Shown here in pieces: positions 36,054-53,727 of a stretch of 64,000 nt of DNA; position 1 is the stretch's first letter; the number at the start of each line of letters is the position of its first letter. A program made the translations under genes and the position numbers. A model generated the notes under the pieces. That model saw nothing but the letters and a program-made list of their open reading frames with translations. It did not search any database and was not told the origin of the DNA. This DNA comes from Spirosoma foliorum (GTDB lineage Bacteria; Bacteroidota; Bacteroidia; Cytophagales; Spirosomataceae): positions 4,415,001 through 4,479,000 of the forward strand of contig NZ_CP059732.1 in the NCBI RefSeq assembly GCF_014117325.1. Reading direction: 5' to 3'.

Positions 36054-37358
36054 TTAGACTAGTTCCGTTACCTCAATCGCTTTAGTTTTTCGGGTTAGCA
36101 GGTGAATAATCAGCCAGGCTGTCAGGTACGTAAAGCCGCAAATGGTAAACAGGATATTGTACCCTTCTGCCAGATTTCCGCTGGCTTTGTACTTATCCAG
36201 TAGGTTACCCACCAGCATGGGAAACAGGATACCCCCCAAAGCACCAGCTGTTCCGCCTATGCCTACAACAGAACTAACCGCCTGTTTCGGAAACATATCG
36301 GAGGCTAAGGTAAAGATATTGGTGGCCCAGGCCTGATGCAGCGCAACAGCCAGACTGATAAGCCCTACAGCAACCCAGACGCCTGTAGCGAATTGAGCCA
36401 GAATAATTGAAAGTTCCAGGGTGGCTAATACCAGCAGCACCGTTTTGCGGGCTTTTATGGTAGGCCACCCTTTTTTAATTAATGAGGAAGACAAATAACC
36501 TCCTCCGATACTACCTAGCGTAGTAGCGGTATAAATCAGCATTAACTCCAGACTTGGTTTCTTTAGATCCAGGTTAAAGGTGGACGAAAAATACGAGGGA
36601 AGCCAGAACAGGAAGAACCAGTAAATAGGGTCGATCAAGCCTTTGCCCGTAATGTAAGCCCAAGTTTGCGGATAGGTAAATAGCTTAAACCAATTGACGG
36701 ACTGTTTAGCTGACGTTGCACTTTCTGCTAACTCCTGACCACTCTGAATGTAGTCTAGTTCTTCGGCAGTTAGACGGCTTTGTTTTGTAGGAATATCGTA
36801 GAATAACAGCCAGAAAATAAGCCAGATAAAGCCCAGGGCTCCTGTAATCCAGAATACTTCGTGCCAGCCGTATTGATTTAATATCCAGGGCACAATAAGC
36901 ACCGCTACCACCACACCAATACTTGTACCCGCGTTAAAGAGTCCGGTGGCTAAACCGCGCTCTTTTTTCGGAAACCACTCCGCCACCGTTTTTACCGCAG
37001 CCGGATAGTTACCGGCTTCGCCAATACCCAGGCCAATTCGGGCCAGACTAAATCCCGTAACGCTCCGGGCAACCGCATGCAACATACCGGCAATGCTCCA
37101 GATAATAATGGTGATGGCGTAACCCGCTTTTGTACCGATTTTGTCAATAATCCACCCGAACAGTAAAAGCCCGACGGCATAGGCGGCCGTGAAGGCCATA
37201 ACGATATGCGCAAAATCGGTTTCGCTCCAGTTGAATTCCTTCTCCAGAATTGGCTTCAGTAAACCAATTATTTGCCGGTCGAGGTAGTTGATTGTCGTTG
37301 CAACAAATAGCAGAAAAACGATAAACCAGCGATAGTTTTTAATTTTCAAGTTGAGCAT
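36054..37358 (-). CDS. MFS sugar-acid transporter (ExuT/DgoT-like)
   Basis: 434 residues, twelve membrane helices. The ACS-family N terminus ATTINYLDRQIIGLLKPILE and the GEAGNYPAAVKTVAEWFPKK motif after helix 4 are characteristic of anion:proton symporters for hexuronates, galactonate and glucarate. It is the last gene of the minus-strand sugar-acid operon, next to the KDPGal aldolase and kinase. It would carry an aldonate or 2-keto-3-deoxy acid into the cytoplasm. The substrate is inferred from neighbours. Confidence 0.87.
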   Translation of the reverse strand: MLNLKIKNYRWFIVFLLFVATTINYLDRQIIGLLKPILEKEFNWSETDFAHIVMAFTAAYAVGLLLFGWIIDKIGTKAGYAITIIIWSIAGMLHAVARSVTGFSLARIGLGIGEAGNYPAAVKTVAEWFPKKERGLATGLFNAGTSIGVVVAVLIVPWILNQYGWHEVFWITGALGFIWLIFWLLFYDIPTKQSRLTAEELDYIQSGQELAESATSAKQSVNWFKLFTYPQTWAYITGKGLIDPIYWFFLFWLPSYFSSTFNLDLKKPSLELMLIYTATTLGSIGGGYLSSSLIKKGWPTIKARKTVLLVLATLELSIILAQFATGVWVAVGLISLAVALHQAWATNIFTLASDMFPKQAVSSVVGIGGTAGALGGILFPMLVGNLLDKYKASGNLAEGYNILFTICGFTYLTAWLIIHLLTRKTKAIEVTELV

Positions 37359-37407
37359 TATAGCACAAGGTTAAACGGGGGCTAACTAATATTTTCATAA
37401 GGTTTTT

Positions 37408-37468
37408 TTGTCATCCCGACGCAGGAGGGATCTTTGTCGTGGTGTCGGTTTTGAGAAACCGACACCAC
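37408..37468. repeat. Repeat half copy (family D) plus hairpin
   Basis: GTCATCCCGACGCAGGAGGG (37410-37429) followed by ATCT is nearly the arm of the inverted repeat at 1538-1624, but without its partner arm. A 13-bp stem follows, GTGGTGTCGGTTT (37439-37451) with AAACCGACACCAC (37456-37468). It lies between the aldolase and MFS genes. Confidence 0.75.
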
Positions 37469-37519
37469 ATCGGTAAACGTTAAGCCAGTTAAATGATTGA
37501 TTTCTCTGTGCCTCTGTGT

Positions 37520-38155
37520 TTAATGAATTTGCTTGACAAACTGCGCAAAATGGTCTTTCAAACCAGACCAGTTTTTCTGCTGAATAAGCGTTTTATCAAA
37601 CAGGTGACTACCAATGCCCACGCCATCGGCACCGGCCTTAAAGTAGGTAGCTATATTATCGAGGCTTATACCCCCCGTTGGAATTAATTTCAATTGATTC
37701 AGAGGAGCTTTAACGTCTTTTATATAATCTGGGCCTAATGACGTAGCGGGATAAACCTTGACCATTGATGCCCCAAATGACCAGGCATTATAAATTTCGG
37801 AGGGAGTAAAAGCGCCAGGGAAAATGGGCACGTTACGCTTTACGCAGGCCTTGATCACCTTCTTATTGACAACGGGTGTGACAATAAACTGCGCCCCCGC
37901 ATCCAGTGCCCTGTCAAGATCGTCTTTTGTACAAACCGTCCCCGCGCCAATATTTAGTCCTTCACTGCTCGTTTCCAGGGCCTGTTTAATCATGGCTTCG
38001 GCTCCCGGTGTATTCATCGTTATCTCAATGGTAGTCAGACCAGCTTCACGATAAACAGGGAGAATCTGGGCAACTACCTCGGCTGATAGACCTCTAATAA
38101 TTCCAACAATAGGAGCCTTTTGGAATAGCTCCCAGGAGAATGCATTTTGTGCCAT
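37520..38155 (-). CDS. 2-dehydro-3-deoxyphosphogluconate/-galactonate aldolase
   Basis: 211 residues, class I KDPG/KDPGal aldolase. IVGIIRGLS at the start, catalytic Glu44 (IEITMN), Schiff-base Lys133 (MVKVYPA) and phosphate site PTGGIS. It splits a 2-keto-3-deoxy-6-phosphohexonate into pyruvate and glyceraldehyde 3-phosphate. It begins a few bases after the 2-keto-3-deoxygalactonokinase gene (5-bp gap), so the kinase product is its substrate. A dgoA-type role is likely, though eda-type enzymes look alike. Confidence 0.92.
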   Translation of the reverse strand: MAQNAFSWELFQKAPIVGIIRGLSAEVVAQILPVYREAGLTTIEITMNTPGAEAMIKQALETSSEGLNIGAGTVCTKDDLDRALDAGAQFIVTPVVNKKVIKACVKRNVPIFPGAFTPSEIYNAWSFGASMVKVYPATSLGPDYIKDVKAPLNQLKLIPTGGISLDNIATYFKAGADGVGIGSHLFDKTLIQQKNWSGLKDHFAQFVKQIH

Positions 38156-38160
38156 ACTAT

Positions 38161-39168
38161 TTATTTACTTAGAGATACTAGCTGGTTCTTCGCTATTTTT
38201 ACTTGTCCGGCAATCGTTGCTTTATCAATTAAATCGGCTGAAATTGTGATAGTTCGGTTCACTAAATGAAGCTCTACAATTGCCTGCTTGTACAATTCGT
38301 ATAGATTGTTTCCACTACATAAAATCAATTGAGAATCAGGCTGCTTTAGTAGTGATTTAAGCTCGTTGCCAATTAATAAACCACTTAAATAAAGGGCATT
38401 CTGGCGCTTGGTTAACTGGCCGAATAGTTGATTTGTCCTTACCCTAAATAGGCTATTTAGAATAGATGATTGATGAGCTTCGTGAATGCCTCTTTTGAAG
38501 GCCTCTAATCCACTTTCATCAAAGGCAACCAGACTTGTTGGCTCGACCGAATCTTTTAAGATACTGTAGTGCGACATGAGATTGAATACTTCTCCTGTCA
38601 TAAACGTTTGCAGATCCGTAACCTGCTGATTCTTAATATAGATGTGTTTCGAATGCGTACCCGGAAAGATTAAAATCGATTCTTCGCTCGTAAACTGCAG
38701 GTTCTCCAATAACGTGAGCAAACCAATTAATTGGGTCTCCTCCCCACGCATCACGTCGTGCTCTGTTCTAACGCCCGATATAAGGATAATATCGTGGGCA
38801 AAATCAGCCTGGGTATTAAGTCTCTTAATGCTGGCCCGACTTCCATCGATTGGAAATGGCAGAGTAGCATACGGTACTTCGTCCATACCAATAGAGGATG
38901 ACGCCATACCCGAAATGACAACCGGAATATTGTCCAGATTAATGGCCAGTTTCTTCGCCAGTAAATTAATTTGTCGTTGTAACTGTACCCGAAAAAACTG
39001 TTCTCGGGAGATTCCTTTGGCTTCACTATTTGCCTTCCAGCGTGTGAATGTATTCGCGACACCCTCCTGAGACGTAATTTCTCCGACGAGTTGCAGATCG
39101 CTACTAGTTATGAGTCGTAGGCGGAAAGAGGACGTGCCCCAGTCACAACCTAATAGATAGGATTTCAT
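38161..39168 (-). CDS. dgoK: 2-dehydro-3-deoxygalactonokinase
   Basis: 335 residues, DgoK family: ASKHA-fold start LLGCDWGTSSFRLRL, then RGEETQLIGLL and IFPGTHSKHI, with LSGLLIGNEL near the end. It phosphorylates 2-keto-3-deoxy-galactonate at C6 using ATP. It is tightly coupled to the downstream aldolase gene. Its presence points to galactonate, or an acid converging on the same intermediate. Confidence 0.92.
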   Translation of the reverse strand: MKSYLLGCDWGTSSFRLRLITSSDLQLVGEITSQEGVANTFTRWKANSEAKGISREQFFRVQLQRQINLLAKKLAINLDNIPVVISGMASSSIGMDEVPYATLPFPIDGSRASIKRLNTQADFAHDIILISGVRTEHDVMRGEETQLIGLLTLLENLQFTSEESILIFPGTHSKHIYIKNQQVTDLQTFMTGEVFNLMSHYSILKDSVEPTSLVAFDESGLEAFKRGIHEAHQSSILNSLFRVRTNQLFGQLTKRQNALYLSGLLIGNELKSLLKQPDSQLILCSGNNLYELYKQAIVELHLVNRTITISADLIDKATIAGQVKIAKNQLVSLSK

Positions 39169-39193: not shown

Positions 39194-41428
39194 TTACGGC
39201 AATGCAAAGGCAACATAAGACCCGCCTGGTTTTAAGCCATATCGGGTACCGCCAGCAGCAATTACTATGTATTGCTTTCCATTGGCCATATAGGTAATTG
39301 GTGTGGCAAATCCTCCGGCGGGCAGTTTATATTCCCAGACGACTTTACCCGTCTTTTTGTCAAAAGCGCGAAGCTTTTCATCGTACGTAGCCGCGATAAA
39401 AAGTAGGCCTCCCGCCGTTACAATTGGACCACCGTGATTCTCTGTCCCCGTGGGCGCTAAGCCTTGTTTGGTAAGTTCGGGAAATTCGCCCAGGGGTACT
39501 TGCCACAAATATTCGCCAGTGTTCAGGTTAATCGCATTCAGCGTTCCCCAGGGTGGTTTGATGGCTGGGTAATTATCCTGATCCCGAAACTGCGTGTTCC
39601 CATTATTTAAATAAGGAGGCATGTATGGGAAGTCAGCGCCTTTGGCCACGGGGGATGTAACAACCGAGCTATGAATATCTGGCGCAGCGGGCTTGGCTTC
39701 TGTCTTCAGCAAAAAGTTGATGATCGCGTCACGGTCCTCTTTGGAGAGATGCCCGAAGGATGGCATTCGACCGCGGCCGGTTGCTAAAAGCGTGCTGATT
39801 TGCTCGCGGTCAAGGCGCTTGCCCACATCGGTCAAATCAGGGTAGGCTTGCGTTGCCGACGCGCTCGCTTTGGTGTCAGCGCTTCCTTTCCCGTTCATGG
39901 CGTGACAAACGGAACAGTTCGTATTAAACAAAGATGAACCGCGCGTCATGGCTACATTTTTTTCCTGCATACGGCTATCCCGCATCTTGAGCCACCAAAG
40001 CATGGTGTTGGCATTCTGGTATAAAATACCCTCAGGATCAGCCGCATTCCCACCCCATTCGGCTCCGCCACCAAATCCATAATACAACGTTCCTTCTTCG
40101 CTTGGAGGCATGTATTTACTGCCTTTGCGACTATCCTGGAACCGTTCCAATACATATTTGTGGGCTTCGGGCGTGCGGGTTGTGATTTCGTTTTCCGTCA
40201 ACTCCTGCCGAACAAACGGTGCGGGTTTAGTCGGAACGGGTTGCGTTGGCCAGGGTTTTTCGCCGGGCAAAGCGGGCGATGTTGGCACCTTCACTTCATT
40301 GACAGGAAACAACGGTTTTCCGGTATCCCGGTCAAATACAAACACATAACCATCTTTCGTCGCCTGCGCTACCGCATCAACCATTTTTCCATTGTGCTTA
40401 ACCGTGATCAGGTTTGGTGGACAAGGCAAATCACGGTCCCACAAATCGTGGTGAATGGTCTGAAAATGCCATACGCGCTTGCCGGTTTCTGCATTCAGCG
40501 CAATTACACAGTTGGCAAATAGATTCTGACCCGGCCGGGCACCCCCATAAAAATCAACAGAAGGGGAGCCAGTACCCGCATAAACCATACCCCGCTTTTC
40601 GTCGATAACCATACCGGCCCAACAGTTCGCTCCACCCAGTTTTTTGTACGAATCTTTTGCCCACGTTTCATACCCATACTCACCCGGCAGCGGGATGGTG
40701 TGGAATACCCAGGCCAGCTTACCCGTACGAACATTAAACGCCCGGATGTAGCCCGGGGGAGCATCGCCCCCTTCATTAACGGCAGAACCGGTAATCAATA
40801 AATCTTTGTAGATGACGCCGGGCGTTGTCACGCGGATTGAAAAGTTATTGACGTCGTAACCTAGTGTTTCTTTATCGCCAAGTCCTTCGTGCAAATCCAC
40901 TTCGCCGTTCTTGCCAAAGCTCTCAATCGGTTTACCCGTTTCGGCATTTACAGCGTACAGTGACGACCCAACTGAATAGAGTATACGTTTATCCCGAGAG
41001 TCGGCCCCATCTTCCCAATAAACCACCCCACGAACAGGATGGAATCGAGGCTTTTTCTCGGGATTTGCGAACGGGTCGAATTGCCAGAGCTGCTTTCCAG
41101 TAGCGGCATTCACAGCAAAGAGTTTCATTCGGGGGGATGTGCCATAAAGCACGCCTTTTATGACAATCGGCTGACACTGAATGTCCATACCGCGTTGGCC
41201 GGGCGTGTTATTATCGCCAGTGTCATAAGTCCAGGCCAGTGTCAGATTCTTGACATTCTGGGTATTGATCTGCGTTAGCTTTGAGTATCGGTTACCAGCA
41301 TTATTGCCGCCATAAGTAGGCCAGTCGTCGGCTGGCAACTGCGGTTTAACCACGTTGCTATTCCAGTTAGCCGACAGGAAGCCTCCCAGAATCAGGGTTC
41401 CGAAGCAGGATTTCAGGAAGAAATTCAT
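39194..41428 (-). CDS. Secreted PQQ-dependent dehydrogenase with cytochrome c domain
   Basis: 744 residues with a signal peptide (about 1-20). The eight-bladed quinoprotein propeller begins DDWPTYGGNNAGNRYSKL and has W-motif blades throughout (YAVNAETGKPIE; LNAETGKRVWHFQ; GYVFVFDRDTGKPLF). A cytochrome c domain is inserted before the last blades, with heme motif CSVCH (about residue 503) and a late Met ligand. The last blade is closed by VAFALP. It oxidises an aldose or polyol in the periplasm and passes electrons via heme to the respiratory chain. PQQ-making genes are not in the window. Confidence 0.9.
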   Translation of the reverse strand: MNFFLKSCFGTLILGGFLSANWNSNVVKPQLPADDWPTYGGNNAGNRYSKLTQINTQNVKNLTLAWTYDTGDNNTPGQRGMDIQCQPIVIKGVLYGTSPRMKLFAVNAATGKQLWQFDPFANPEKKPRFHPVRGVVYWEDGADSRDKRILYSVGSSLYAVNAETGKPIESFGKNGEVDLHEGLGDKETLGYDVNNFSIRVTTPGVIYKDLLITGSAVNEGGDAPPGYIRAFNVRTGKLAWVFHTIPLPGEYGYETWAKDSYKKLGGANCWAGMVIDEKRGMVYAGTGSPSVDFYGGARPGQNLFANCVIALNAETGKRVWHFQTIHHDLWDRDLPCPPNLITVKHNGKMVDAVAQATKDGYVFVFDRDTGKPLFPVNEVKVPTSPALPGEKPWPTQPVPTKPAPFVRQELTENEITTRTPEAHKYVLERFQDSRKGSKYMPPSEEGTLYYGFGGGAEWGGNAADPEGILYQNANTMLWWLKMRDSRMQEKNVAMTRGSSLFNTNCSVCHAMNGKGSADTKASASATQAYPDLTDVGKRLDREQISTLLATGRGRMPSFGHLSKEDRDAIINFLLKTEAKPAAPDIHSSVVTSPVAKGADFPYMPPYLNNGNTQFRDQDNYPAIKPPWGTLNAINLNTGEYLWQVPLGEFPELTKQGLAPTGTENHGGPIVTAGGLLFIAATYDEKLRAFDKKTGKVVWEYKLPAGGFATPITYMANGKQYIVIAAGGTRYGLKPGGSYVAFALP

Positions 41429-41469: not shown

Positions 41470-42447
41470 TTACTGCTTCTGTTTTTCGTAAAACTCGTAG
41501 GCTATTTTCCACTTTATTTCCTCACCAGGTGCTGCTTTCAATTGTATATATGGTTCTGGGCAAGAGGTAGTTGCGCAGGCCCAGTACACTAATTTTTGTA
41601 GGGGCCGATCGCCAGTAATGTGCACTCCTGCTCCTGTTTTCTGATTTTCGACGCGTATGTCATAATCGGCTGATGAAGTTCCAAAGCCTTGCAGGCCAGC
41701 GCTATACACCTGTTCTTTTTTGTCCAGTGCCCGCGAATAAAGTAGCTGTTTTCCTTGTGGCAGAATGGTACTGCCGAAGCCTTTTCCTTCGCCTTTCACC
41801 TCAAACGGAAATTCGATTGCGACGGTTGGGCCAGTGGGCTGTTTGTCAATGATGAAGAAGTTGTGATCATAGGTGCTCGTTTCGATGGGCAGCTTGCCCG
41901 TATTTTTCAAACTGTGTTCCAGTACGAGCTCAGGTTTGCCCTTGGTGAGTTTTACCATTTTGCGATACACGTACCCGTAACCAGTTGGACTAGTGAGTTC
42001 GTGGGTAAACTCCAGATAATCTTTGTGCTTTTTTACGTTCCAGTTTCCTTGTTCTACGATGTCGTAATATTTCGCGAAGACATAAGCTTTATCATCGGGT
42101 TTGCGGAGTACGCCTACCCCTATCTTCACAAACGTATCACCGGGTTTTGCTTCCGTGTAACCCAGTGGCGTAAATTCTTCTACAGGTCCACTGATGGCGT
42201 CGTGCAGTTTGGGGTCGTAGTTTTCGAACCAGGGCTCAATGAAGCTGTGACCTTTGTAAGTCAGGTCTTTAAACGCCCCCGACCAGTCGAAACGAGTTCC
42301 CTGGTAATAACCCTGACTGGCATCGGGAAGGTATAAGCTTGTCTGAATAAGGCCGTTGGACAGTTCAGCCTGTGGCCATTCGGCTAAAGGCATTATGTTG
42401 CTACACAGGCCCAAAACAGCAAAAGTAGAAATGAGTGCCTTTTTCAA
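41470..42447 (-). CDS. Secreted mutarotase-like (galactose mutarotase fold) protein
   Basis: 325 residues with a signal peptide (about 1-20). The body is a beta-sandwich related to aldose 1-epimerases: LSNGLIQTSLYLPDA, YYQGTRFDWSG, then VLEHSLKNTGKLPI and YDHNFFIID. A His occurs in DHNF where the family has its catalytic His region. The closing WACATTSCPEPYIQLKAAP part carries two Cys. In this locus it may interconvert sugar anomers or act on a lactone before or after the PQQ dehydrogenase; this is inference. Confidence 0.72.
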   Translation of the reverse strand: MKKALISTFAVLGLCSNIMPLAEWPQAELSNGLIQTSLYLPDASQGYYQGTRFDWSGAFKDLTYKGHSFIEPWFENYDPKLHDAISGPVEEFTPLGYTEAKPGDTFVKIGVGVLRKPDDKAYVFAKYYDIVEQGNWNVKKHKDYLEFTHELTSPTGYGYVYRKMVKLTKGKPELVLEHSLKNTGKLPIETSTYDHNFFIIDKQPTGPTVAIEFPFEVKGEGKGFGSTILPQGKQLLYSRALDKKEQVYSAGLQGFGTSSADYDIRVENQKTGAGVHITGDRPLQKLVYWACATTSCPEPYIQLKAAPGEEIKWKIAYEFYEKQKQ

Positions 42448-42561: not shown

Positions 42562-44034
42562 CTATAAATTCGGATTTATCGACGTATCCGTATACGGAAG
42601 TGTGAACCAGTAATTAGCCTTGGTGATTGGTTTGATCGGCTGTAAATCATCTGGACTTTTGGCTGCGTTGGCTGCTTCTACCTGTTCGAGACGAATCAAA
42701 TCAAACCAGCGGGTACGTTCACAGGCAAATTCCCAGGCACGCTCCTGAACTACCGCATCCGCAAATTGAGCGGCTGTCAGGCCATCCCCCGTCGTAAGAG
42801 ATTTGGTTCCAGCTGGTAAACCACGCAAGCGAACGGCATTTAATGCATCATACGCAGCCTGATCTGGGCCACCTGTTCCACGGGCTTTCGCTTCAGCATA
42901 AATGGTCAACACGTGTGGATAACGCATCATGACGGATGGCAATGAAATACTAGAGGTATTAATGTTGCCTTTGATATACCATTTTTGGTAATACGGGTGT
43001 TTCGTCAAACTGCTCTGCCACGGAATAGTTGTGCTACCTGAAGTAAACTGCGTACGGAATGTAGCATCTTTTCGGGGACCAGCCGGGAAGTTTTTGAAGA
43101 AATTCAGTTCAGCAAACATATCGTCCCAACCACCTTCTTCACCGGGCATCGTTGTGCTGCCATAGGTCGCATTGGCGGTACCGCTGCCGCCTGTAAAGCC
43201 GTTGATCTGAAACACTGATTCTGGAATAATGGCAACGGCCGGATCATTGGCAAAAACCTCGGCAAAAGTTGGCATCAGCGCAAAGCCATAGGTAGCACGG
43301 TTGTCAATCACCTCTTTGGCTTTAGCAGCTGCCAAATCGTATTTGTCGGTTTGCTTCAGCGGCCAGCCTGCCATCGTCAGATACACATCGGCCAGGAAAG
43401 CCTTTGCCGAACCTGCGTTTGGCCGACCCGGATCGCGCCGAGTGTTAGGCAACATTGTTTCCGCTTTTTTCAAATCCGCAACGATCAGATCGTACACCTC
43501 AGCTGGTGTCGATTTTTTGATGGTGAGCAGATCAGCCGAATATTCACCTGCTGTAACCAGTGGAATATTGCCGTAAAAACGGGTTAACCAATAATACGAG
43601 AATCCACGAATGAAGAAGGCTTCGCCCGCAATAATGTCGATCGTGGCCTTTGTCCCAACTGTTTTCGAGTAGTTATTGATTACGTTGTTTGCCCCCTGAA
43701 TGGCTTTATAACAACCCGTGTAAACGGCACCTGAACGCTGATTCGTGGTCGATACGTTAAATTGATCAAATTCACGCCAGTCGGCTTTGTTACTGGCTGG
43801 GTGCGTCGTTACGTCATCGCTACCAATTGTCGCGGCATTGGCCGATGGGTGCAGAAACCCATACGTCCATTGGTTACCCAGACCACGATAAGCGCCGGTC
43901 AGAGCCGACTCCAGTCCGTCCTGGGTTGAGAGAACGTTCCCGCCATAAAGCAGGCCCGTTGTATCTTCTTCGAGATAACCCTTACAGCCAACTGTGAGCA
44001 TGGCTGCCATTCCAAGTATCACTAATTTTTTCAT
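42562..44034 (-). CDS. SusD/RagB family nutrient-binding outer-membrane lipoprotein
   Basis: 490 residues. Lipoprotein signal with Cys17 (MLTVGCKGYL). SusD fold: an N-terminal TPR-like part with LSTQDGLESALTGAYRGL and a C-terminal part with PVERA-like QERAWEFACERTRWFDLIRL, the standard family end motif. It caps the SusC barrel and captures sugars or oligosaccharides at the cell surface. It follows susC by 99 bp. Confidence 0.94.
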   Translation of the reverse strand: MKKLVILGMAAMLTVGCKGYLEEDTTGLLYGGNVLSTQDGLESALTGAYRGLGNQWTYGFLHPSANAATIGSDDVTTHPASNKADWREFDQFNVSTTNQRSGAVYTGCYKAIQGANNVINNYSKTVGTKATIDIIAGEAFFIRGFSYYWLTRFYGNIPLVTAGEYSADLLTIKKSTPAEVYDLIVADLKKAETMLPNTRRDPGRPNAGSAKAFLADVYLTMAGWPLKQTDKYDLAAAKAKEVIDNRATYGFALMPTFAEVFANDPAVAIIPESVFQINGFTGGSGTANATYGSTTMPGEEGGWDDMFAELNFFKNFPAGPRKDATFRTQFTSGSTTIPWQSSLTKHPYYQKWYIKGNINTSSISLPSVMMRYPHVLTIYAEAKARGTGGPDQAAYDALNAVRLRGLPAGTKSLTTGDGLTAAQFADAVVQERAWEFACERTRWFDLIRLEQVEAANAAKSPDDLQPIKPITKANYWFTLPYTDTSINPNL

Positions 44035-44133: not shown

Positions 44134-47124
44134 TTAGAAGCCCAGGTTGATACCGAGCGTATACTGTTTGGCGTTTGGATAGGAACCGTAATCAATACCA
44201 ATGGCGGTATCGGTGGCTGAACCAACCCGAGCTGACTCTGGATCTGGACCGGTGTATTTCGTGAATGTGAGCAGGTTTGTAGCGCTGACAAATACCTTAA
44301 CGGCCGCTTTGTTATGAATGAAACCGTTTGGCACATTGTACGAAAGGCTCACGTTTTTCAGACGAACGAAGCTACCGTTTTCGATGAACCGGCTCGACTG
44401 TGTGAAGGGCTGATACGTTGTGGTAAAGGCTGGCACATTCGACGTTTCATTACCTGGCCGGTAGTAATCCCGGATTTCAGACAGAATGAATTGCCGTGCA
44501 TCGCCCGCGCCCGACATAGCTGCTGCCCGAGTGTAGTTGAGTTTATCGACCCCAAACACCCCGTTAAAGAATACGTTCAGCGTAAATCCTTTGTAGGTAA
44601 AGGTGTTGTTCCAGCCACCTGTTACTTTGGGGAACGCCCGACCTATGATCTGGAAGTCATCTGTTGTGATTGCGTTGTCGCCGTTCAGGTCCTGATAATG
44701 TGGGTCACCTGGTACGCGACCTTGTTTGGCTGCGGCATCAGCTTCGTTGGGCTTCCAGGTACCCAGATACTTCAGGCCCCAGTACGAACCCAGTGGCTCG
44801 CCGGGTATCAGCATAAACTCATTGGTTGTAGACATTCCACCGCCTACACCCGTACCCTGGCCCAGTCGTGGCAGACCACCCAAACTGATTACTTTGTTTT
44901 GTAAGGTGGAGATATTAAAGTTCGTCTCCCAACGGAAACCACCTGCTACCACAGGAGCGCCACCGATCGAGAATTCGAAGCCTTTGTTCTCAACTTCACC
45001 CACGTTCCGGGCCTGTGTTCCGCCACCGGCATAGCTTGGGATCGCTACGTTCAGGAGCAGGTCGGTCGTATTTTTCTTATAGTAATCGGCTTCAATATGC
45101 AGTCGACCGTTCAGGAATTCCATTTCTAGACCTACATCCACCTGCTTGGTTGTTTCCCATTTGAGATCCGGGTTGCCGGGGTTACCCAGAATTACCCCAG
45201 ACGTAGCGGCTGAGTTGTTGTAGGCGACAGCGCCTGTGCTATAGGTTGATATCGTAGCGTAAGGGTTAATGGCCTGGCTACCCGTCATACCCCAGCTACC
45301 CCGCAGTTTCAGGTTATTAAAGATGTTCAGTTTTTTGATAAACTCCTCTTCCGATAAGCGCCAGCCCAAAGCAACGGATGGGAATACGCTATATCGGTTG
45401 GCAGTAGCAAACTTGGATGATCCGTCGCGACGAACGGCTGCCGATACCAGGTACTTGTCTTTGTATCCGTAGTTTACGCGTCCCAACAACGATAATAACG
45501 TCCATTTTTGATAGCTCGAAGCCACTGTTGCGGCTGTATTGAGGCCAATGTTGTCGTAGCCCAATTGGGGGAATCGTAATCCCGAAGCCGAAGCAGTAAA
45601 GTCTCGGCTCGTAAATTGCTGCGTTTCCAGAACGGCAACGGCATTAATCGAGTGATTCCCGATTTTGACGTCGTAGTTCAAATTATTCGTGTTTTGCAGG
45701 GTTACCTGCTCTGCCGAATACCGGCTTGCCGTCGGGACGTTGTTCGACAGACGCTTGCCCGTCAAATTCAGGTTTTGCACGTTCAGATAGTTGACGGCAT
45801 ATTGCAAATCGACAGACAGCCCTTTGATTGGAAGTTTATAGTTTAAGCCGCCGTTGGCGTTGAGCCCACTCTTGTTCGCATCAATCGATTGATCATACAA
45901 ATAATCGAGCGGGTTACGATAAACCGAACCAATTGGATCGGTAAACGTCGGCTGACCATCGGCACCATAGGCAGGTGTTGTCGGTGCCCAGGCCAGCGCC
46001 TGAACAATGGCTCCACCATCGACTGTGTTATGGTTTTGCGACCGTGTACCCCACAGATTCAAGCGCACAGAAAGCTTATCATTAATCTGTGTGTTGATAT
46101 TGGTTCGCAGGTTATACCGCTTAAATCCGCTGTTGTTCACGATACCATTCTGATTCAGGTAGTTTCCCGAAATCAGAAAGGTCGTTTTGTCGCTTCCACC
46201 CGAAAGCGTAATCTGGTGCTGTTGACCTGACCCTTTTCGGAATACCAGGCTCTGCCAATCAGTGCCGCCATTTTGTTTATACTGCGCGATTTGGTCGGCA
46301 GTAAACGGCAAACCCGAACCAACAGCCGTAGCACGGGCATTCACAATTTCGGCGAACTCACCCGCAGGCAATACGTCGTATTTTTTGATAATTTCCGACG
46401 TACTAAACTGCCCTTCGTAGTTGACCTTCAGCCCTTTTGAGCCTTTCTTGGTCGTGATGATCACAACGCCATTGGCACCACGACTACCGTAAATAGACGT
46501 CGATGCGGCATCTTTCAAGATTTGGATGGTCTCAATATCGCTGGGGTTTACGAAGTTAAAATCAGCCCCAACGAAGCCGTCGACAATGTACAGGGGGTTG
46601 TTGCTGCCCAATACCGAGTTCGCTCCCCGAATCCGGATACGGGCGTCACCACCTGGCGCGCCGTTCGTCTGGCTCACCTGCACACCCGCAGCACGTCCTT
46701 GCAGAACCTGGTCCAGACGGGTAACGGGTTGTTGGGCAAATTCTTTGGTTGAAATGGCCGTCAGCGCACCCGTAACATCGGTTTTCTTCTGCGTACCGTA
46801 TCCAACCACAACCACTTCGTTCAACGTTTTCTGATCCTCGGCTAACTGCACATTGATAACCGAGCGTCCATTAACCGGTATTGTTTGACCTACATAGCCA
46901 ATAGTCGAAAATACCAGCGAGGCATTACTCGCAGCATTTAACGAAAAATTACCCGATGCATCGGTAGATGTACCGATTGTTGTACCACTTACCTGAATAT
47001 TGACCCCAGGCAAGCCCTGGCTGTCGGGACCGGTTACTTTACCGGTCACTCTGGCATTCTGGGCGAAGGCATAGCTATACCCCAGAAGCAGTAGTAAAAC
47101 CCATAGTTTTACAGTTTTTTTCAT
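44134..47124 (-). CDS. SusC/RagA family TonB-linked outer-membrane transporter
   Basis: 996 residues. Signal peptide (1-21), a carboxypeptidase-like domain (about 25-100; VTGKVTGPDSQGLPGVNIQV), TonB-linked plug with LNEVVVVGYGTQKKTDVTG and LQGRAAGVQV (about 112-160) and IRIRGANSVLGSNNPLYIVD. Then a 22-strand beta-barrel ending in LGINLGF with the terminal Phe. With SusD it imports the locus substrate in a TonB-dependent way. It precedes susD. Confidence 0.95.
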   Translation of the reverse strand: MKKTVKLWVLLLLLGYSYAFAQNARVTGKVTGPDSQGLPGVNIQVSGTTIGTSTDASGNFSLNAASNASLVFSTIGYVGQTIPVNGRSVINVQLAEDQKTLNEVVVVGYGTQKKTDVTGALTAISTKEFAQQPVTRLDQVLQGRAAGVQVSQTNGAPGGDARIRIRGANSVLGSNNPLYIVDGFVGADFNFVNPSDIETIQILKDAASTSIYGSRGANGVVIITTKKGSKGLKVNYEGQFSTSEIIKKYDVLPAGEFAEIVNARATAVGSGLPFTADQIAQYKQNGGTDWQSLVFRKGSGQQHQITLSGGSDKTTFLISGNYLNQNGIVNNSGFKRYNLRTNINTQINDKLSVRLNLWGTRSQNHNTVDGGAIVQALAWAPTTPAYGADGQPTFTDPIGSVYRNPLDYLYDQSIDANKSGLNANGGLNYKLPIKGLSVDLQYAVNYLNVQNLNLTGKRLSNNVPTASRYSAEQVTLQNTNNLNYDVKIGNHSINAVAVLETQQFTSRDFTASASGLRFPQLGYDNIGLNTAATVASSYQKWTLLSLLGRVNYGYKDKYLVSAAVRRDGSSKFATANRYSVFPSVALGWRLSEEEFIKKLNIFNNLKLRGSWGMTGSQAINPYATISTYSTGAVAYNNSAATSGVILGNPGNPDLKWETTKQVDVGLEMEFLNGRLHIEADYYKKNTTDLLLNVAIPSYAGGGTQARNVGEVENKGFEFSIGGAPVVAGGFRWETNFNISTLQNKVISLGGLPRLGQGTGVGGGMSTTNEFMLIPGEPLGSYWGLKYLGTWKPNEADAAAKQGRVPGDPHYQDLNGDNAITTDDFQIIGRAFPKVTGGWNNTFTYKGFTLNVFFNGVFGVDKLNYTRAAAMSGAGDARQFILSEIRDYYRPGNETSNVPAFTTTYQPFTQSSRFIENGSFVRLKNVSLSYNVPNGFIHNKAAVKVFVSATNLLTFTKYTGPDPESARVGSATDTAIGIDYGSYPNAKQYTLGINLGF

Positions 47125-47250: not shown

Positions 47251-48486
47251 TTACCAGTCTACTACGGAGCCATCGAGGGCATTATAAGCCTCAGGATTTT
47301 TCCAGTCGTGACCGATTTTATCTTTCATGAGCGCATCGTCCAGCTCAACGCCCAGGCCCGGTCCTTTAGGAATCAAGACCGTACCGTCGCTTTGTAGTTT
47401 GAACGGATTTTTGATGTAGCCATCCCCCAACGAAACCTGCTCCTGTACCAGAAAATTGGGTACGCTGGCTGCCAGATGAAGACCTACTGCTAATGAAATT
47501 GGCCCCATTGGGTTATGAGGAGCAATGGGTACGTAATACGCTTCGGCCATGCCTGCAATAAGACGCCCCTCCGTAATGCCACCAGCGTGGCAGAGATCGG
47601 GTTGAACGATGCTGACAGCCTTCTTTTCAAGCAGCTCCCGGAATCCCCATTTGGTGAAAATGCGTTCTCCGGCCGCTATAGGGAGGTGCGTTCCTCGTGC
47701 GATGTCAGCCAAAACATCCACGTTCTGCGCCTGACAGGGTTCCTCTACAAACATGGGCTGAAACGGCTCCAGCTGCTTGATCAGCACTTTAGCCGTTTGG
47801 GGTGAGATGTTCCCATGAAAGTCAATAGCAATGTCCATCTCGGGTCCACCGGCTTCCCGTAACGATGCGAAGTTGTCGACTGCGTACTTGATGAATTGGG
47901 GGTTCTCGACAATATTGGCGGGGTTCTTATGCGCAACGCCCGTTTTGATAACTGTGAATCCCTCCGCTTTTCGTTTCTTAATGTCCTCCGCGTTACTAGC
48001 CCGACCGTAAATTCGAACCCGATCGCGGGTTGGGCCGCCGAGTAATTCATAAACCGGTACGTTCAGCAGTTTGCCTTTGATATCCCAAAGCGCATGATCA
48101 ATACCGCTCAGGGCACTCGTTAGAATCGGGCCACCGCGATAAAAAGCATGTCGATAAATAGCCTGCCAGTGATGAACAATATGGCGCGGATCTTTCCCGA
48201 TCAGGTAAGGCTCTATCTCTTTAATGGCGGTTTGGATAGTGAGAGCCCTGCCTTCGAGCAGTGGTTCGCCAAGGCCGTGAACACCCACATTCGTGTGAAT
48301 TTTAAGGAACACCCACCGAGGTTTAACCAGAAACGTTTCGAGTTTGGTAATCTTCACATTGCTGTAATCGGCAAAATGACCGGGACTGGCAGAATAAGAT
48401 GTTTTTGGCAATACCATCGTACTCATACCAGCAACACCCAATACGGATTGTATGACGCTACGTCGGGACACGCCTGTTTTTTTCAT
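47251..48486 (-). CDS. Exported enolase-superfamily dehydratase, DgoD-like
   Basis: 411 residues. Twin-arginine signal SRRSVIQSVLGVAGMS at 8-23. The catalytic domain matches galactonate dehydratase: DFHG metal and His motif, FVEEP, AGERIF as the three metal ligands, QPDLCHAGG, and APHNPMGP with the second catalytic His. It would dehydrate D-galactonate to 2-keto-3-deoxygalactonate. The Tat signal puts this step in the periplasm, which is unlike the cytoplasmic E. coli enzyme. A LacI-like palindrome lies 23 bp before its start. Confidence 0.88.
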   Translation of the reverse strand: MKKTGVSRRSVIQSVLGVAGMSTMVLPKTSYSASPGHFADYSNVKITKLETFLVKPRWVFLKIHTNVGVHGLGEPLLEGRALTIQTAIKEIEPYLIGKDPRHIVHHWQAIYRHAFYRGGPILTSALSGIDHALWDIKGKLLNVPVYELLGGPTRDRVRIYGRASNAEDIKKRKAEGFTVIKTGVAHKNPANIVENPQFIKYAVDNFASLREAGGPEMDIAIDFHGNISPQTAKVLIKQLEPFQPMFVEEPCQAQNVDVLADIARGTHLPIAAGERIFTKWGFRELLEKKAVSIVQPDLCHAGGITEGRLIAGMAEAYYVPIAPHNPMGPISLAVGLHLAASVPNFLVQEQVSLGDGYIKNPFKLQSDGTVLIPKGPGLGVELDDALMKDKIGHDWKNPEAYNALDGSVVDW

Positions 48487-48508: not shown

Positions 48509-48524
48509 ATTTAATCGATTAAGC
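48509..48524. promoter_or_regulatory. Candidate LacI operator
   Basis: The core TTAATCGATTAA (48511-48522) is a perfect palindrome with a central CG, as in LacI-family operators. It lies just before the DgoD-like gene. It resembles the sites at 51505 and 52600. Confidence 0.5.
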
Positions 48525-48631: not shown

Positions 48632-49987
48632 TTACGGCCGGATAATCGTACCGTCCATTTTGCGGACCTGCCAGTTCGATTTAGTTGTGATGGGATATTT
48701 AGCCGCTTCCTTTTCGTCAACATCGACCCCTAAACCGGGCACCTCGTTAACCGACATGTAGCCTTTATTCATAGTCGGGCAACCGCTAAACACGGCCTGC
48801 GTTTTCTCGGAGAATTGTACGGCTTCCTGGATACCGAAATTCCACACGGCCAGATCGATGTGCGCATGAGCCGCGTGACCTACCGGCGAGACGTCGCCCG
48901 GACCGTGCCAGGCGGTGCGAATGTTGAACCACTCCCCTAACCTCGCTACTTTCATAGCTGGCGAAATACCACCAATTTGCGAGACGTGAATTCGGATAAA
49001 ATCGAACCATTGGTTGACCATCGGCTCTTTGAACTCATTGATATTATTGAACAATTCGCCCATTGCAATCGGCACAGAAGTCGCCTGTCGGAGTTGCGCA
49101 AACCACTTCATATTCTCTGGTGAGAAGGGGTCTTCAATAAAGAAAGGCCGATATTCTTCAACCCGCTTAATCATATTGATGGCATCGATAGGTTGCACCC
49201 GCTCATGTATGTCGTGGAGCAACTCAATTTCATCCCCGCACTCCTTCCGAACGACTTCGAACATTTTGGGCACCGATTTCAGATAGAGCCGCTCGTTCAT
49301 GTAGTTGTCGGTTTCTCCTCCGAAGCCAGCCACTTTGAAATCGGGTTTGTCGGCAGTGGCTCCCACCGCTCCATAACCTCCTTGCTGAATACGGATATAT
49401 TTGAAACCATCAGCCATGAACTTCTTGACACTATCAGCTGCGGCTTCTGGGGTATTGCCTCCCGCGTGGGTATAGCAGGGAATCGCAAAGCGTACTTTGC
49501 CGCCAAGTAATTGATACACTGGCATTTTCGCCCGTTTCCCTTTGATATCCCAAAGCGCCTGATCAAGTCCCGAAAGTGCGTTGTTGAGCACGGGGCCGTT
49601 ACGCCAGTACGAACTGACATAGGTCGACTGCCACATATCCTCGATATTGTCCACGTCTTTGCCGACACAAAACTCATTCAGATACGTGTTGATAGCCACG
49701 ATAACCGCAGCGGCTCGTTGGGTAAACGTAGCACAGCCAAGCCCATAGAGTCCCGGTTCCGTTGTTTCAACCTTAACGACAATCAGGTTAGAACCCTGGG
49801 GCGCCGTGGCAATAGCCTTGACACTTTTGATTTTAACGGGTGGCGCACCAACGGCATACGGGGGCTTGCCTTGCTGTTCACGAGCTTCGGCAGTAGAGAC
49901 GCCACCAAACAAACCGAGTAGTCCGGCTGATGAGCCAAATCCCAGCATTTTTAAGGTGTCCCGGCGGCTTTGGTCAAGGTGATTCAT
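48632..49987 (-). CDS. Exported enolase-superfamily dehydratase, mannonate dehydratase-like
   Basis: 451 residues. Tat signal SRRDTLKMLGFGSSAGLL at 7-24. ManD/RspA-type features: HDIHERV (Asp, His), FFIEDPF, AMGELFNN and TAWHGPGDVSPVGHAAH with the catalytic His. A loop rich in Gly/Tyr (about 200-230) corresponds to the ManD active-site loop. It probably dehydrates a C6 acid sugar to 2-keto-3-deoxygluconate in the periplasm. Its C-terminal sequence matches the decayed fragment beside the GH43 gene at 3345. Confidence 0.85.
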   Translation of the reverse strand: MNHLDQSRRDTLKMLGFGSSAGLLGLFGGVSTAEAREQQGKPPYAVGAPPVKIKSVKAIATAPQGSNLIVVKVETTEPGLYGLGCATFTQRAAAVIVAINTYLNEFCVGKDVDNIEDMWQSTYVSSYWRNGPVLNNALSGLDQALWDIKGKRAKMPVYQLLGGKVRFAIPCYTHAGGNTPEAAADSVKKFMADGFKYIRIQQGGYGAVGATADKPDFKVAGFGGETDNYMNERLYLKSVPKMFEVVRKECGDEIELLHDIHERVQPIDAINMIKRVEEYRPFFIEDPFSPENMKWFAQLRQATSVPIAMGELFNNINEFKEPMVNQWFDFIRIHVSQIGGISPAMKVARLGEWFNIRTAWHGPGDVSPVGHAAHAHIDLAVWNFGIQEAVQFSEKTQAVFSGCPTMNKGYMSVNEVPGLGVDVDEKEAAKYPITTKSNWQVRKMDGTIIRP

Positions 49988-50224: not shown

Positions 50225-51466
50225 TTACCAGTTATGAATCGCTCCGTCCGGGCTTTTCAAAACGGGGTGCGGGAACTGTGTTTTGGTTGTAACTTCCATA
50301 ACGAACGTTGCTTTTTTAGGATCGAATTTCACTCCCAACCCTGGGTTTGGATTCAGGTATAACTTACCATTTTTGAAGTTTATGAAATCCTCATTGAAGT
50401 AAGCCGGACGTTCAGGTTCGCCCCCACCCAATTCCATCAGACAGCGATTTGGACTGCTAGATCCTAGAACGTGCACCAAAGCAGCCGTTGATAAAGGCCC
50501 TGTAAAGTGCGGAATCATACCTGCGTAATGCGTCTCGCAGAGGGAAGCTATCTTTTTAAATTCGCCAATGCCGCCGGTATTAGGTAGTGTAACGCGCGTG
50601 TAATCGATCAAGCGCTGTTCAATTAATTCATTAATATCCCAGCGATCGCCAAATTGCTCACCAACCGCAATGGGTACGTTGGTCATCTGACGCACCGTTT
50701 TGTAGACGCCTGGGTTTTCAGAACGAACAATATCCTCTACGAAATAAGGCTCCAGATTTTCAAGCGCCTTGCAGATTTTGATGCCCTCCGTTAAGTCAAA
50801 CCGAGTATGCAGATCAAGTGCCCATTTGCCACCACCGCCCACGGCAGCGTCGATACGCTTACAGAATTCAATTGTCTTTTTGGCGTTATCGTAGAAATCA
50901 AACGGTTGCTCCCCATTGCCTCCCGTTGGCCCAATCCGATAGGCGCGTAAACCAGCTTCTATGCAATCTCTGGCCCGTTCTTCTTCCGTTTTGGCTTTCG
51001 ACGCTCGGAAACCAGTCGCATAACATTCAACATAATCGCGGGTAGCACCGCCCAGCAAATCATAGACGGGTACGCCCAGAGCCTTTCCTTTAATATCCCA
51101 CAGGGCCATTTCAAGCGCTCCTAAGGCGTGGAGTTTTTCGCGGCCCGGCGGATAAAACATACCCCGGTATACATTCTGCCAAAGGTGCTCTACGCGGAAC
51201 GGATCTTCGCCAATGATCATCTGGGCACACTGCTCAATCATGTCTTTGGAGCCACCTTCGCCAATGCCGATAATGCCCCCATCGGTCTCGATTTCAACAA
51301 TTCCACGAGCCTGATTAAACAAAGGTTTGTTGTACCCAGGCGCTGCGTAATACCGGATTTTGGTGATTTTTAACTTAGGTGCAGCCAGCGCAAGATTTAA
51401 TGGTAGGCCAGCGACAATAGCCGCTGACCCGACAACAGAGGATTTAAGAAAGTTTCTACGTTGCAT
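50225..51466 (-). CDS. Exported enolase-superfamily protein (mandelate racemase group)
   Basis: 413 residues. Tat signal RRNFLKSSVVGSAAIVAG at 3-20. Catalytic set: ALDLHTRFDL, FVEDIV, AVGEQFGD and IPHFTGPLS, with Asp, Glu, Glu and His in the expected order. It is close to neither DgoD nor ManD; the acid-sugar substrate is unknown. It precedes the other two dehydratases in the operon and follows the LacI gene by 66 bp, where a LacI-like palindrome lies. Confidence 0.83.
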   Translation of the reverse strand: MQRRNFLKSSVVGSAAIVAGLPLNLALAAPKLKITKIRYYAAPGYNKPLFNQARGIVEIETDGGIIGIGEGGSKDMIEQCAQMIIGEDPFRVEHLWQNVYRGMFYPPGREKLHALGALEMALWDIKGKALGVPVYDLLGGATRDYVECYATGFRASKAKTEEERARDCIEAGLRAYRIGPTGGNGEQPFDFYDNAKKTIEFCKRIDAAVGGGGKWALDLHTRFDLTEGIKICKALENLEPYFVEDIVRSENPGVYKTVRQMTNVPIAVGEQFGDRWDINELIEQRLIDYTRVTLPNTGGIGEFKKIASLCETHYAGMIPHFTGPLSTAALVHVLGSSSPNRCLMELGGGEPERPAYFNEDFINFKNGKLYLNPNPGLGVKFDPKKATFVMEVTTKTQFPHPVLKSPDGAIHNW

Positions 51467-51504: not shown

Positions 51505-51520
51505 GCTTAAACGATTAAGC
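51505..51520. promoter_or_regulatory. Candidate LacI operator
   Basis: GCTTAAACGATTAAGC: 6-bp arms GCTTAA/TTAAGC around ACGA. It lies 38 bp before the enolase-superfamily gene and 12 bp after the LacI stop. Confidence 0.55.
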
Positions 51521-51532
51521 AAATGGGTAAAT

Positions 51533-52573
51533 TTAAGTATGAACAAGCTGCTTTGTTTTTGAAGACGCTCGTATAATCAGTTCTGCTTCCATTAATATCT
51601 GCGATGGTTCTGCCTGTGGGTGCTTCAATTTCTTCATTAAAAATTCAACTGCTGTTTTGCCCAAAAGTCCAATGGGTTGTTTTACATACGTTATTGGACA
51701 ATAGTATAGGTCAAATGCTTCTGCCTGCCCAAAACTGACGATGCCCAAATCGGCGGGCACATTCAGATCTAATTCATTAATATATTTTAGTCCCGTAACG
51801 GCCAAGCTGTACGTGGCAAAAACAATTGAATCAATTGGCTCCTTAGCCGCCAGCATTTCATTGATAGCTGCTTTAACGCCCTGTTCAATGGCACTGATAC
51901 GCACCTGCTTTAACCATTGCGGTTGAAAGGATACGTTATTGTCAGCTAATGCTTCCTTATAGCCTCTAATCCGTTCCTGCATATGGAAAAGTTGCGAATC
52001 ATAGGCAATCATTCCAATACGCTTGTACTCACTTTTTACTAAATGTTCGCCAGCGGTATAGGCCGCTTTATAGTGATCGGTGGATACGAAATCAGTTTGT
52101 ATATCCGGGAAATACCGGTCTAGCAAAACAAATGGAATATTTTTCGCCTGTAGGTCCCGCACTTGCTCAGCCGAGTCTTCAGAGGAAACGATAATAAATC
52201 CATCTACCTGCCGATTAATCAATACGTCTAATAAATCCCGTGATTTCTCGGCGTTTTCGTCTGAGCTGCCGATAATAACGGTATAGCCATTTCGCTTTGC
52301 TTCGTCTTCAACTACCCGGGCGATATTCGCAAAAAACGGGTTCGATATATCTGCAATAATTAACCCAATGGTATGTGTTTTGCCGCTTCGCAAACTTTTC
52401 GCTAAGTGGTTAGGCTGGTAGTTAAGTTCTTTGGCTATTTGCCTGATCTTAGCAGCAATTTCCTGCCCTACCCGACTCTCTTTTTCTTTTCCATTCAGAA
52501 CATAAGACACAAGTGCCATAGAAACACCCGCTCGTTGCGCTATATCCTTTAACGAAGTTTTTTTAGCACTCAT
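51533..52573 (-). CDS. LacI family transcriptional regulator
   Basis: 346 residues. N-terminal HTH (TSLKDIAQRAGVSMALVSYV) with hinge helix (HLAKSLRSGKT), then the periplasmic-binding-protein-like effector domain with TIGLIIADISNPFF at about 67-80 and the late YVKQPIGLLGKTAVEFL. It likely represses the sugar-acid locus and is released by an acid or 2-keto-3-deoxy acid. Candidate operators stand on both sides of the gene and before the DgoD-like gene. Confidence 0.92.
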   Translation of the reverse strand: MSAKKTSLKDIAQRAGVSMALVSYVLNGKEKESRVGQEIAAKIRQIAKELNYQPNHLAKSLRSGKTHTIGLIIADISNPFFANIARVVEDEAKRNGYTVIIGSSDENAEKSRDLLDVLINRQVDGFIIVSSEDSAEQVRDLQAKNIPFVLLDRYFPDIQTDFVSTDHYKAAYTAGEHLVKSEYKRIGMIAYDSQLFHMQERIRGYKEALADNNVSFQPQWLKQVRISAIEQGVKAAINEMLAAKEPIDSIVFATYSLAVTGLKYINELDLNVPADLGIVSFGQAEAFDLYYCPITYVKQPIGLLGKTAVEFLMKKLKHPQAEPSQILMEAELIIRASSKTKQLVHT

Positions 52574-52599
52574 CTAGTAACAATTGCGCTCAAATCTAT

Positions 52600-52615
52600 G
52601 CTTAAACCTTTAAAC
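52600..52615. promoter_or_regulatory. Candidate LacI operator / autoregulatory site
   Basis: GCTTAAACCTTTAAAC: arms TTAAA/TTTAA around CC, 27 bp before the LacI start codon, similar to the sites at 51505 and 48511. A half-site TAAACGAATA also occurs at 52651. Confidence 0.4.
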
Positions 52616-52764
52616 AAAAAAGAATTTGCCAATATTTTTTTAATGATTTTTAAACGAATAGTACTATTTGTGACAGAAACGTGATGATCTATCCACTTAT
52701 GGGGGCCACATATAGTGGGACCATGCTGTTTTCGCCCAGTCGATAACCCATTCATTAAAAATAA

Positions 52765-52836
52765 ATGGGAGCCCCAAGAAAGTATTTTCCCGAAGCTCCC
52801 ATACCATTCTCGCCGGGTTAAAACCCGGCGAGAATG
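52765..52836. terminator. Two adjacent hairpins in the FAH-LacI gap
   Basis: ATGGGAGC (52765-52772) pairs with GCTCCCAT (52795-52802). CATTCTCGCCGGGTT (52805-52819) pairs with AACCCGGCGAGAATG (52822-52836), a 15-bp perfect stem. They should end transcription of the FAH gene before the LacI gene. The rest of this 317-bp gap shows no gene. Confidence 0.7.
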
Positions 52837-52890
52837 AGAAATAAAGAGAAGATTATCTAGGCGAATCTAGCTCACTAAGCACTGGGCTTC

Positions 52891-53727
52891 TTAAGCAACT
52901 ATATTCGTCAATGTTCCGATTTCATCAATACTAATGCTGATTTCGTCGCCAGAACGTAGCGTAAAATCATCGGGTGGAACAATACCAGTGCCTGTCATCA
53001 GGAAACACCCCTGCGCGAACGAACATTCTCGATAGAGAAATTCCACGAGTTCTGTGTGTTGCCGTTTCATCTGGTTAATGGCGATACTATTTGTAAAAAC
53101 AGCCTGTTGATCCCGGATGATTTCCAGCCGAATTTGCGTTTCGGGAGCGATTGGCGTTTGCGGAACATACAAGCATGGACCTAAAGCGGCACTTCCATCA
53201 TAACTCTTTGCCTGAGGTAAATACAACGGGTTTTCGCCCTCAATGCTTCGCGAACTCATGTCATTGCCACAAGTATACCCCACAATTTTACCCGACGATG
53301 TAATAAACAACGTCAGTTCAGGTTCGGGCACATTCCAGGTCGAATCGGCGCGGATACGAACGTCGGCACCAGGCCCGACAACCCGTTCGGGCGTAGCTTT
53401 GAAGAACAGTTCGGGGCGGTCGGCATCGTAAACGCGATCATAGAAATTGTCGCCCCCCGATTTTTTGGATTCTTCCATCCGGGCGTTACGGCTACGCAGA
53501 TAGGTAACTCCCGATGCCCATACTTCCTGCCGTCCAATGGGGGCTAGTAAGCTGGTTTGGGTCCAGGCTTGATATTCTTCTGACGGTTGAGAAATGGCAG
53601 TCGAAGTGACTAAAAAGTCATGCAAATTATCGCGATTGATCAATTCATCCCAATCCTCAGCGAGGATGGAATAAAACTGATTTTCAAATTCTGCGACGAT
53701 ACCGGAGCGGGTTTTGTAGAGTTTCAT
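52891..53727 (-). CDS. FAH-family protein, 2-keto-3-deoxy-acid dehydratase-like
   Basis: 278 residues. The C-terminal FAH fold has [44 protein letters not shown] (metal Glu ligands), [20 protein letters not shown] and [10 protein letters not shown]. This arrangement is that of the COG3970 group, which includes 2-keto-3-deoxy-arabinonate dehydratase, an enzyme that yields alpha-ketoglutarate semialdehyde. Its place just before the LacI gene suggests a role for pentonic acids beside the hexonate branch. It is separated from LacI by strong hairpins. Confidence 0.75.

Follow-up and report, generated by a model that had tools for sequence, protein, structure and literature searches.

A Spirosoma foliorum locus with a putative periplasmic front end of the De Ley-Doudoroff pathway

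A 64,000-nucleotide stretch of the Spirosoma foliorum genome (contig NZ_CP059732.1, positions 4,415,001 to 4,479,000; hereafter the window) contains, at its positions 36054-53727, a locus that probably encodes a periplasmic front end of the De Ley-Doudoroff/Entner-Doudoroff pathways, in which oxidation and dehydration would both take place in the periplasm and a 2-keto-3-deoxy acid would then be taken up. The genome is a single contig of 8.85 Mb. The genes lie on the minus strand and encode, from 53727 to 36054, a FAH-family protein, a LacI-family regulator, three enolase-superfamily dehydratases (D1, D2 and D3), SusC, SusD, a mutarotase-fold protein (MutL), a pyrroloquinoline quinone (PQQ) dehydrogenase (PQQDH), DgoK, a 2-keto-3-deoxy-6-phosphogluconate (KDPG) aldolase and a major facilitator superfamily (MFS) carrier (Table 1). 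A preliminary description of this DNA had reported SusC/SusD, a mutarotase-like protein, a PQQ dehydrogenase with a cytochrome domain, the three dehydratases, the MFS carrier, DgoK and the aldolase, all of which are confirmed by family matches. Its proposal that oxidation and dehydration are both periplasmic gains support from conserved export-type signals, phylogeny, the presence of a TatC gene in the genome and gene linkage.

In this model, SusC and SusD would carry sugars or oligosaccharides across the outer membrane and secreted MutL would equilibrate anomers. Secreted PQQDH would oxidise aldoses to lactones or aldonates, with electrons passing through its own cytochrome c to the respiratory chain, and D1-D3, folded and exported by the twin-arginine translocation (Tat) system, would dehydrate aldonates in the periplasm. 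The MFS carrier would import the 2-keto-3-deoxy acid, DgoK would phosphorylate it, and the aldolase would cleave the product into pyruvate and glyceraldehyde 3-phosphate. Protein families, active-site residues, export-type N-termini, gene linkage and operator-like sites were all read from sequence; we infer the cell location, substrates, pathway order, electron route, carrier specificity and PQQ scavenging.

The N-termini of the dehydratases were scored with a rule of our own, distinct from SignalP and TatP, that requires RR within the first 40 residues followed by an uncharged stretch of 13 residues or more that has a hydrophobic core. Related loci were the best 80 of at least 577 candidates, that is, the closest relatives and not an even sample, and matches below 60% identity (dehydratases) or 40% (other proteins), or shorter than half length, were left out. 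The rule was positive for 77/80 D3, 47/50 D2 and 55/55 D1 proteins; in the same loci it was positive for 0/31 PQQDH, 0/15 MutL, 0/35 DgoK, 0/36 aldolase and 1/41 LacI proteins (1/112 for the last three pooled). The D3 exceptions are L063 and L097, in which an RR motif is visible by eye, and L026 from Spirosoma telluris, whose D3 (around 10001) and PQQDH frames appear broken in the public contig, possibly through an assembly error. Those of D2 have either a start outside the stretch (L022 and L088) or a short frame (L063). All D2 and D1 proteins (30/30 each) were also positive in loci from genomes of the same family, some of whose strains are shared with the previous set. The twin-arginine signals noted earlier on all three dehydratases are thus borne out by conserved N-termini. 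Chance was rejected as the cause of these conserved signals, because the pattern is too rare in shuffles of the first 44 residues after the initial M (125, 45 and 23 of 5000 for D1, D2 and D3, respectively). Six of 79 open reading frames (ORFs) of at least 250 amino acids in eight other stretches of the same genome passed the rule: four encode enolase-superfamily proteins, and two (one SusD-like, one membrane-like) are apparently false positives. Among the 14 MR_MLE_C proteins of this genome, seven pass, an eighth (L007) shows the motif followed by too short an uncharged stretch, and six have no signal. DgoD and RspA of Escherichia coli are negative.

Phylogenetic analysis points in the same direction. 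A relative of D3 at E 1e-60 was found in 13 of the 296 Bacteroidota genomes drawn. The 15 DgoD-like places listed outside the family of S. foliorum are at most 51% identical and fail the twin-arginine rule without exception (two of them are one sequence present twice, and two have a stop in frame). The tree comprises 53 rows, near-duplicates having been thinned to 54 and one sequence (L244) dropped by the program; its alignment was cut before D3 position 30, which keeps most of the signal from influencing the topology, and L063 and L097 were scored as signal-bearing by eye. One branch splits 38 signal-bearing from 15 signal-less sequences, with support of 100/99 and presence in 100% of 200 bootstrap trees; long-branch warnings concerned EcRspA, L242, L241, EcDgoD and L232. 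The signal-bearing side includes Bacteroidota, Acidobacteriota (two rows), Planctomycetota (one) and Omnitrophota (two). Since these signal-bearing proteins form one group across four phyla, the signal is ancient and has been retained, and it did not arise by accident in this genome.

The active-site residues found in DgoD and RspA of E. coli recur in all three dehydratases, including DgoD D183, H185, E209, E235, H285 and E310, which we take to be the metal ligands and catalytic residues. D3 reaches 441 bits against the D-galactonate dehydratase model NF010624 (equivalog cut-off 311); it shares 46% identity with E. coli DgoD over 386 columns and 97% with a Spirosoma arboris protein. For D2, the nearest named models are those of ManD, whose cut-offs it does not reach (392.1 vs 550 for NF043051, 384.9 vs 430 for NF011654). 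It aligns across its whole mature length with the structures 3tw9, 3t6c and 4ihc of the ManD/gluconate-dehydratase subgroup, and D-gluconate is favoured as its substrate because the 3tw9 group and 3t6c presumably include gluconate-bound entries. D1 is below every named aldonate dehydratase cut-off (best, NF010624, 204.7 vs 311). In the model, D3 would act on D-galactonate, D2 probably on D-gluconate and/or D-mannonate, and D1 on some aldonate.

PQQDH aligns with E. coli Gcd in two segments (34% identity over 473 columns and 45% over 130 columns), and its propeller matches PF01011 above cut-off. Residues D331, K358, C505, C508 and H509 are invariant among 13 sequences. Gcd D466 and K493, which we assume to be the active-site Asp and Lys, are aligned with D and K in PQQDH, and Gcd H262 has no match in that alignment, nor has the N-terminal part of Gcd, its membrane domain. 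PQQDH stays below the cut-off of the membrane PQQ glucose dehydrogenase model TIGR03074 (484.9 vs 832.65; match from profile position 147), and its predicted structure is poor (mean predicted local distance difference test score, 65.1). MutL has a galactose-mutarotase fold, with H82, H195 and E298 invariant among 11 sequences; these residues would correspond to the catalytic His, His and Glu of GalM.

The enzymes without export signals would complete the pathway in the cytoplasm. DgoK and the KDPG/2-keto-3-deoxy-6-phosphogalactonate (KDPGal) aldolase of the De Ley-Doudoroff pathway are both present in the locus according to family matches, with 33% identity over 226 to E. coli DgoK and 34% over 176 to DgoA, respectively.

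A search of other genomes for the gene set found it conserved. In the neighbourhoods of 35 D1 orthologues from the family, we detected LacI in 28, D3 and MFS in 27 each, PQQDH in 24, D2, DgoK and aldolase in 23 each, MutL in 20, and SusC/SusD close by in seven. These derive from 36 full-length orthologues minus that of the window (the fragmented G067 was left out) and are stretches of at most 19.8 kb, three of them shorter at contig ends, so that some end short of the aldolase and MFS genes. The pairing of PQQDH with D2 also recurs at other loci: in 121 family genomes with a total of 51 D2-type genes, at least 41 of these genes have a PQQDH gene within 12 kb, always on the same strand, and 18 of these 41 pairs are less than 500 bp apart. 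This is a lower bound, because the count used 60 PQQDH matches (the 53 best, 40 of which have a D2-type partner, and seven others) and omitted weaker ones. The S. foliorum genome itself has two further such clusters, L191 (C1:1701001-1721000; SusC-SusD-MutL-PQQDH-D2, with D2 95% and PQQDH 63% identical to those of the locus) and L192 (C1:4272001-4292000; SusC-SusD-x-PQQDH-MutL-D2, 73% and 58%), both carrying a signal-bearing ManD-like dehydratase. One family genome has a compact version of the cluster (L155), in the order D2-D1-MutL-PQQDH-aldolase-MFS and lacking D3 and DgoK. DgoK was never seen without D3 in the 35 D1 neighbourhoods, which is consistent with D3 and DgoK being a galactose branch joined to a core unit for oxidation and dehydration (PQQDH, MutL, D2).

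Palindromes like TGCTTAATCGWTTAAGCA precede D1 and D3 in the window (Table 1). Three matches within three mismatches occur there, one of them inside D1, a number equalled in 1/100 shuffles; a weaker copy before LacI was recognised by eye. Across 82 loci, 62 sites within three mismatches were found in 38 loci, vs 0.8 expected from mononucleotide shuffles: 24 before D1, 12 before LacI and 2 before D3, at 39-286 bp upstream in all these cases, and 24 elsewhere. Among the last group, 12 loci, mostly from Dyadobacter, have the palindrome some 180-430 bp upstream of the SusC gene that precedes D2. L191 and L192 have none within three mismatches. In the model, the LacI-type regulator would act at least on D1 and D3.

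Several results weigh against the proposed model. The first group bears on the more ordinary arrangement, in which aldonates made by periplasmic PQQDH enter through the MFS carrier and are dehydrated in the cytoplasm, the N-terminal extensions exporting nothing or a minor share. The carrier is nearest to the galactonate transporter model, with 26% identity to E. coli DgoT over 393 columns. D1 and D2 are below the cut-offs of curated Tat signal models (20.8 vs 22.7 and 14.7 vs 16.7 for D1, 15.1 vs 16.7 for D2), and the D3 N-terminus does not match these models. Our rule alone is not specific, since the membrane protein Gcd of E. coli is also positive. As to cytoplasmic enzymes that could bypass the exported ones, it is in favour of the proposed model that the six signal-less MR_MLE proteins and two IlvD/EDD proteins of the genome do not reach the cut-offs for galactonate, gluconate, mannonate or phosphogluconate dehydratase. 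The best models of the former are epimerase, racemase, muconate-type, MenC and glucarate dehydratase, all below cut-off; the PDB matches of the glucarate-like protein are glucarate dehydratases and putative isomerases. Of the IlvD/EDD proteins, L169 passes the IlvD cut-off; L170, which is signal-less, passes that of the dihydroxy-acid-dehydratase subfamily, falls just below that of L-arabinonate dehydratase (826.7 vs 882), and has PDB matches that include sugar-acid dehydratases of the L-arabinonate dehydratase type. Because of this resemblance, L170 is a plausible aldonate-dehydrating bypass in the cytoplasm. We nevertheless consider the ordinary arrangement unlikely, given that the RR motif and hydrophobic extension are kept in nearly all related D1, D2 and D3 proteins, for D3 across four phyla, whereas the distant DgoD-like proteins of other Bacteroidota all lack them by our rule.

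Other unfavourable results concern the tie between dehydration and PQQDH. The periplasmic dehydratases could serve substrates that PQQDH does not make, such as aldonates or aldonate-ended oligosaccharides imported by SusC/SusD, with PQQDH as a separate electron source. PQQDH and MutL are missing from the D1/D3 stretches of Larkinella, whose genomes hold a D2-PQQDH pair elsewhere, and a stretch from Daejeonella (L060) with no PQQDH relative in 21 kb carries, next to a SusC-like gene, a run of five enolase-superfamily genes whose N-termini look twin-arginine by eye, plus a sixth close by (3929-11260, 13426-15042). Among the matches listed, 10/51 D2-type genes and 13/53 best PQQDH genes have no partner within 12 kb. 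D1 and D2 would fit such other substrates too, being below all named dehydratase cut-offs. The frequent and often close D2-PQQDH linkage and the presence of DgoK alongside D3 speak for the coupled pathway instead, and we regard separate functions as improbable. No lactonase was recognised among the genes of the locus, and the palindrome is not enriched genome-wide (six places within two mismatches, two of them in the locus, as many as for the reversed control). The supply of PQQ is a further difficulty: in the S. foliorum genome, searched with no positive-control genome, PqqE has eight weak matches, none above cut-off, and PqqC has no match. PqqC was above cut-off in 0/198 Bacteroidota genomes, with weak matches in 13, a search that likewise had no positive control and leaves absence unproved. 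Since PQQDH relatives (E 1e-100) occur in 115/121 family genomes, with six encoded in S. foliorum, and no PqqE or PqqC is above cut-off, PQQ is, provisionally, probably scavenged from other species.

The locus resembles dgoTDAKR of E. coli and the De Ley-Doudoroff pathway in combining galactonate dehydratase, DgoK, KDPGal aldolase and a DgoT-like MFS carrier in one cluster. It differs in its three dehydratases with twin-arginine signals, in oxidation by PQQDH and in its LacI-type regulator, DgoR of E. coli being of the GntR type. D2 resembles the ManD/gluconate-dehydratase subgroup, including RspA, over its mature length and active-site residues, but unlike RspA has a twin-arginine N-terminus; the PDB chains are constructs in which signals are not visible. 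In acetic acid bacteria, 3-dehydroquinate dehydratase is periplasmic. As described in excerpt, quinate dehydrogenase is followed there by this enzyme (PMC9171043), a succession of membrane/quinoprotein oxidation and dehydration like that proposed here, although both dehydratase and substrate are unrelated to those of the locus. In excerpts of another study, sugars become sugar acids in the periplasm and are transported afterwards (PMC12076931); papers on Pseudomonas concern the same kind of system. Oxidation outside the inner membrane and subsequent acid transport are common to that system and the one proposed here; that system imports the sugar acid, whereas the proposed cargo here is the dehydrated 2-keto-3-deoxy acid. 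On this partial view of the sources, these two systems follow the closest described logic that we found. The excerpted text of De Ley-Doudoroff reconstructions does not mention exported dehydratases (PMC5507952), and we found no description of exported aldonate dehydratases in the open-licence literature, covered largely at title and abstract level.

Table 1. Features of the locus, in window positions.
Feature	Position	Strand	Remarks
FAH-family protein	52891..53727	-	Nearest solved relative 2-keto-3-deoxy-D-arabinonate dehydratase (2q18, E 5e-54); accessory
LacI-family regulator	51533..52573	-	PF00356, PF00532
LacI-type operator-like palindrome	51505..51520		39-54 bp upstream of D1; one mismatch
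D1, divergent enolase-superfamily dehydratase	50225..51466	-	Twin-arginine signal QRRNFLK
D2, ManD/gluconate-dehydratase-like	48632..49987	-	Twin-arginine signal SRRDTLK; closest PDB 3tw9, 3t6c, 4ihc
LacI-type operator-like palindrome	48509..48524		23-38 bp upstream of D3; two mismatches
D3, D-galactonate-dehydratase-like	47251..48486	-	Twin-arginine signal SRRSVIQ; NF010624, E. coli DgoD match
SusC-like TonB-dependent transporter	44134..47124	-	PF00593, PF07715, PF13715 above cut-off
SusD-like outer-membrane lipoprotein	42562..44034	-	PF14322, PF07980 above cut-off
MutL, mutarotase-fold protein	41470..42447	-	Hydrophobic N-terminus; ORF-list start TTG, true start uncertain
PQQ dehydrogenase (PQQDH)	39194..41428	-	Propeller of the glucose dehydrogenase type, with a c-type cytochrome domain inserted; N-terminus Sec-like by eye
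DgoK, 2-keto-3-deoxygalactonokinase family	38161..39168	-	PF05035 above cut-off; no export signal
KDPG/KDPGal aldolase	37520..38155	-	TIGR01182 above cut-off; no export signal
MFS carrier, DgoT-like	36054..37358	-	Proposed 2-keto-3-deoxy aldonate importer

The FAH gene was found in 2/80 related loci (many of these stop short of its position) and in 0/35 family stretches; it is perhaps a pentose side branch. A Larkinella-type D3 stretch has a DUF4380 gene (PF14315) between D3 and DgoK (L144, 9352-10218). Elsewhere in the S. foliorum genome, a twin-arginine enolase-superfamily gene (L004) lies among genes for sulfatase-looking proteins, as judged by eye (L197, 9883-11142), and a signal-bearing one (L002) lies next to an MFS gene whose product is 51% identical to the MFS carrier of the window (L196, 9423-12299). 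Further Daejeonella/Pedobacter-type clusters like L060 are L056, L057 and L059.

To our knowledge, enolase-superfamily aldonate dehydratases are treated as cytoplasmic enzymes, and a conserved exported group would place two steps of catabolism on the outer side of the inner membrane and change the cargo of the carrier. We lean slightly towards a widespread front end of this kind, in which Bacteroidota (and, as far as the DgoD-like enzyme is concerned, members of Acidobacteriota, Planctomycetota and Omnitrophota) would oxidise sugar acids, dehydrate them, or both, before they reach the inner membrane, a DgoT-like MFS carrier having become an importer of 2-keto-3-deoxy acids. If this is true, the periplasm would be a main site of sugar-acid chemistry, since half of the 14 enolase-superfamily proteins pass the rule and one more shows the motif, and a committed catabolic intermediate, not a sugar, would cross the inner membrane. 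Gene annotations in these phyla may then mislead as regards DgoT-like carriers and 'galactonate dehydratases'. The model also predicts a dependence on external PQQ, which would be a cross-feeding link.

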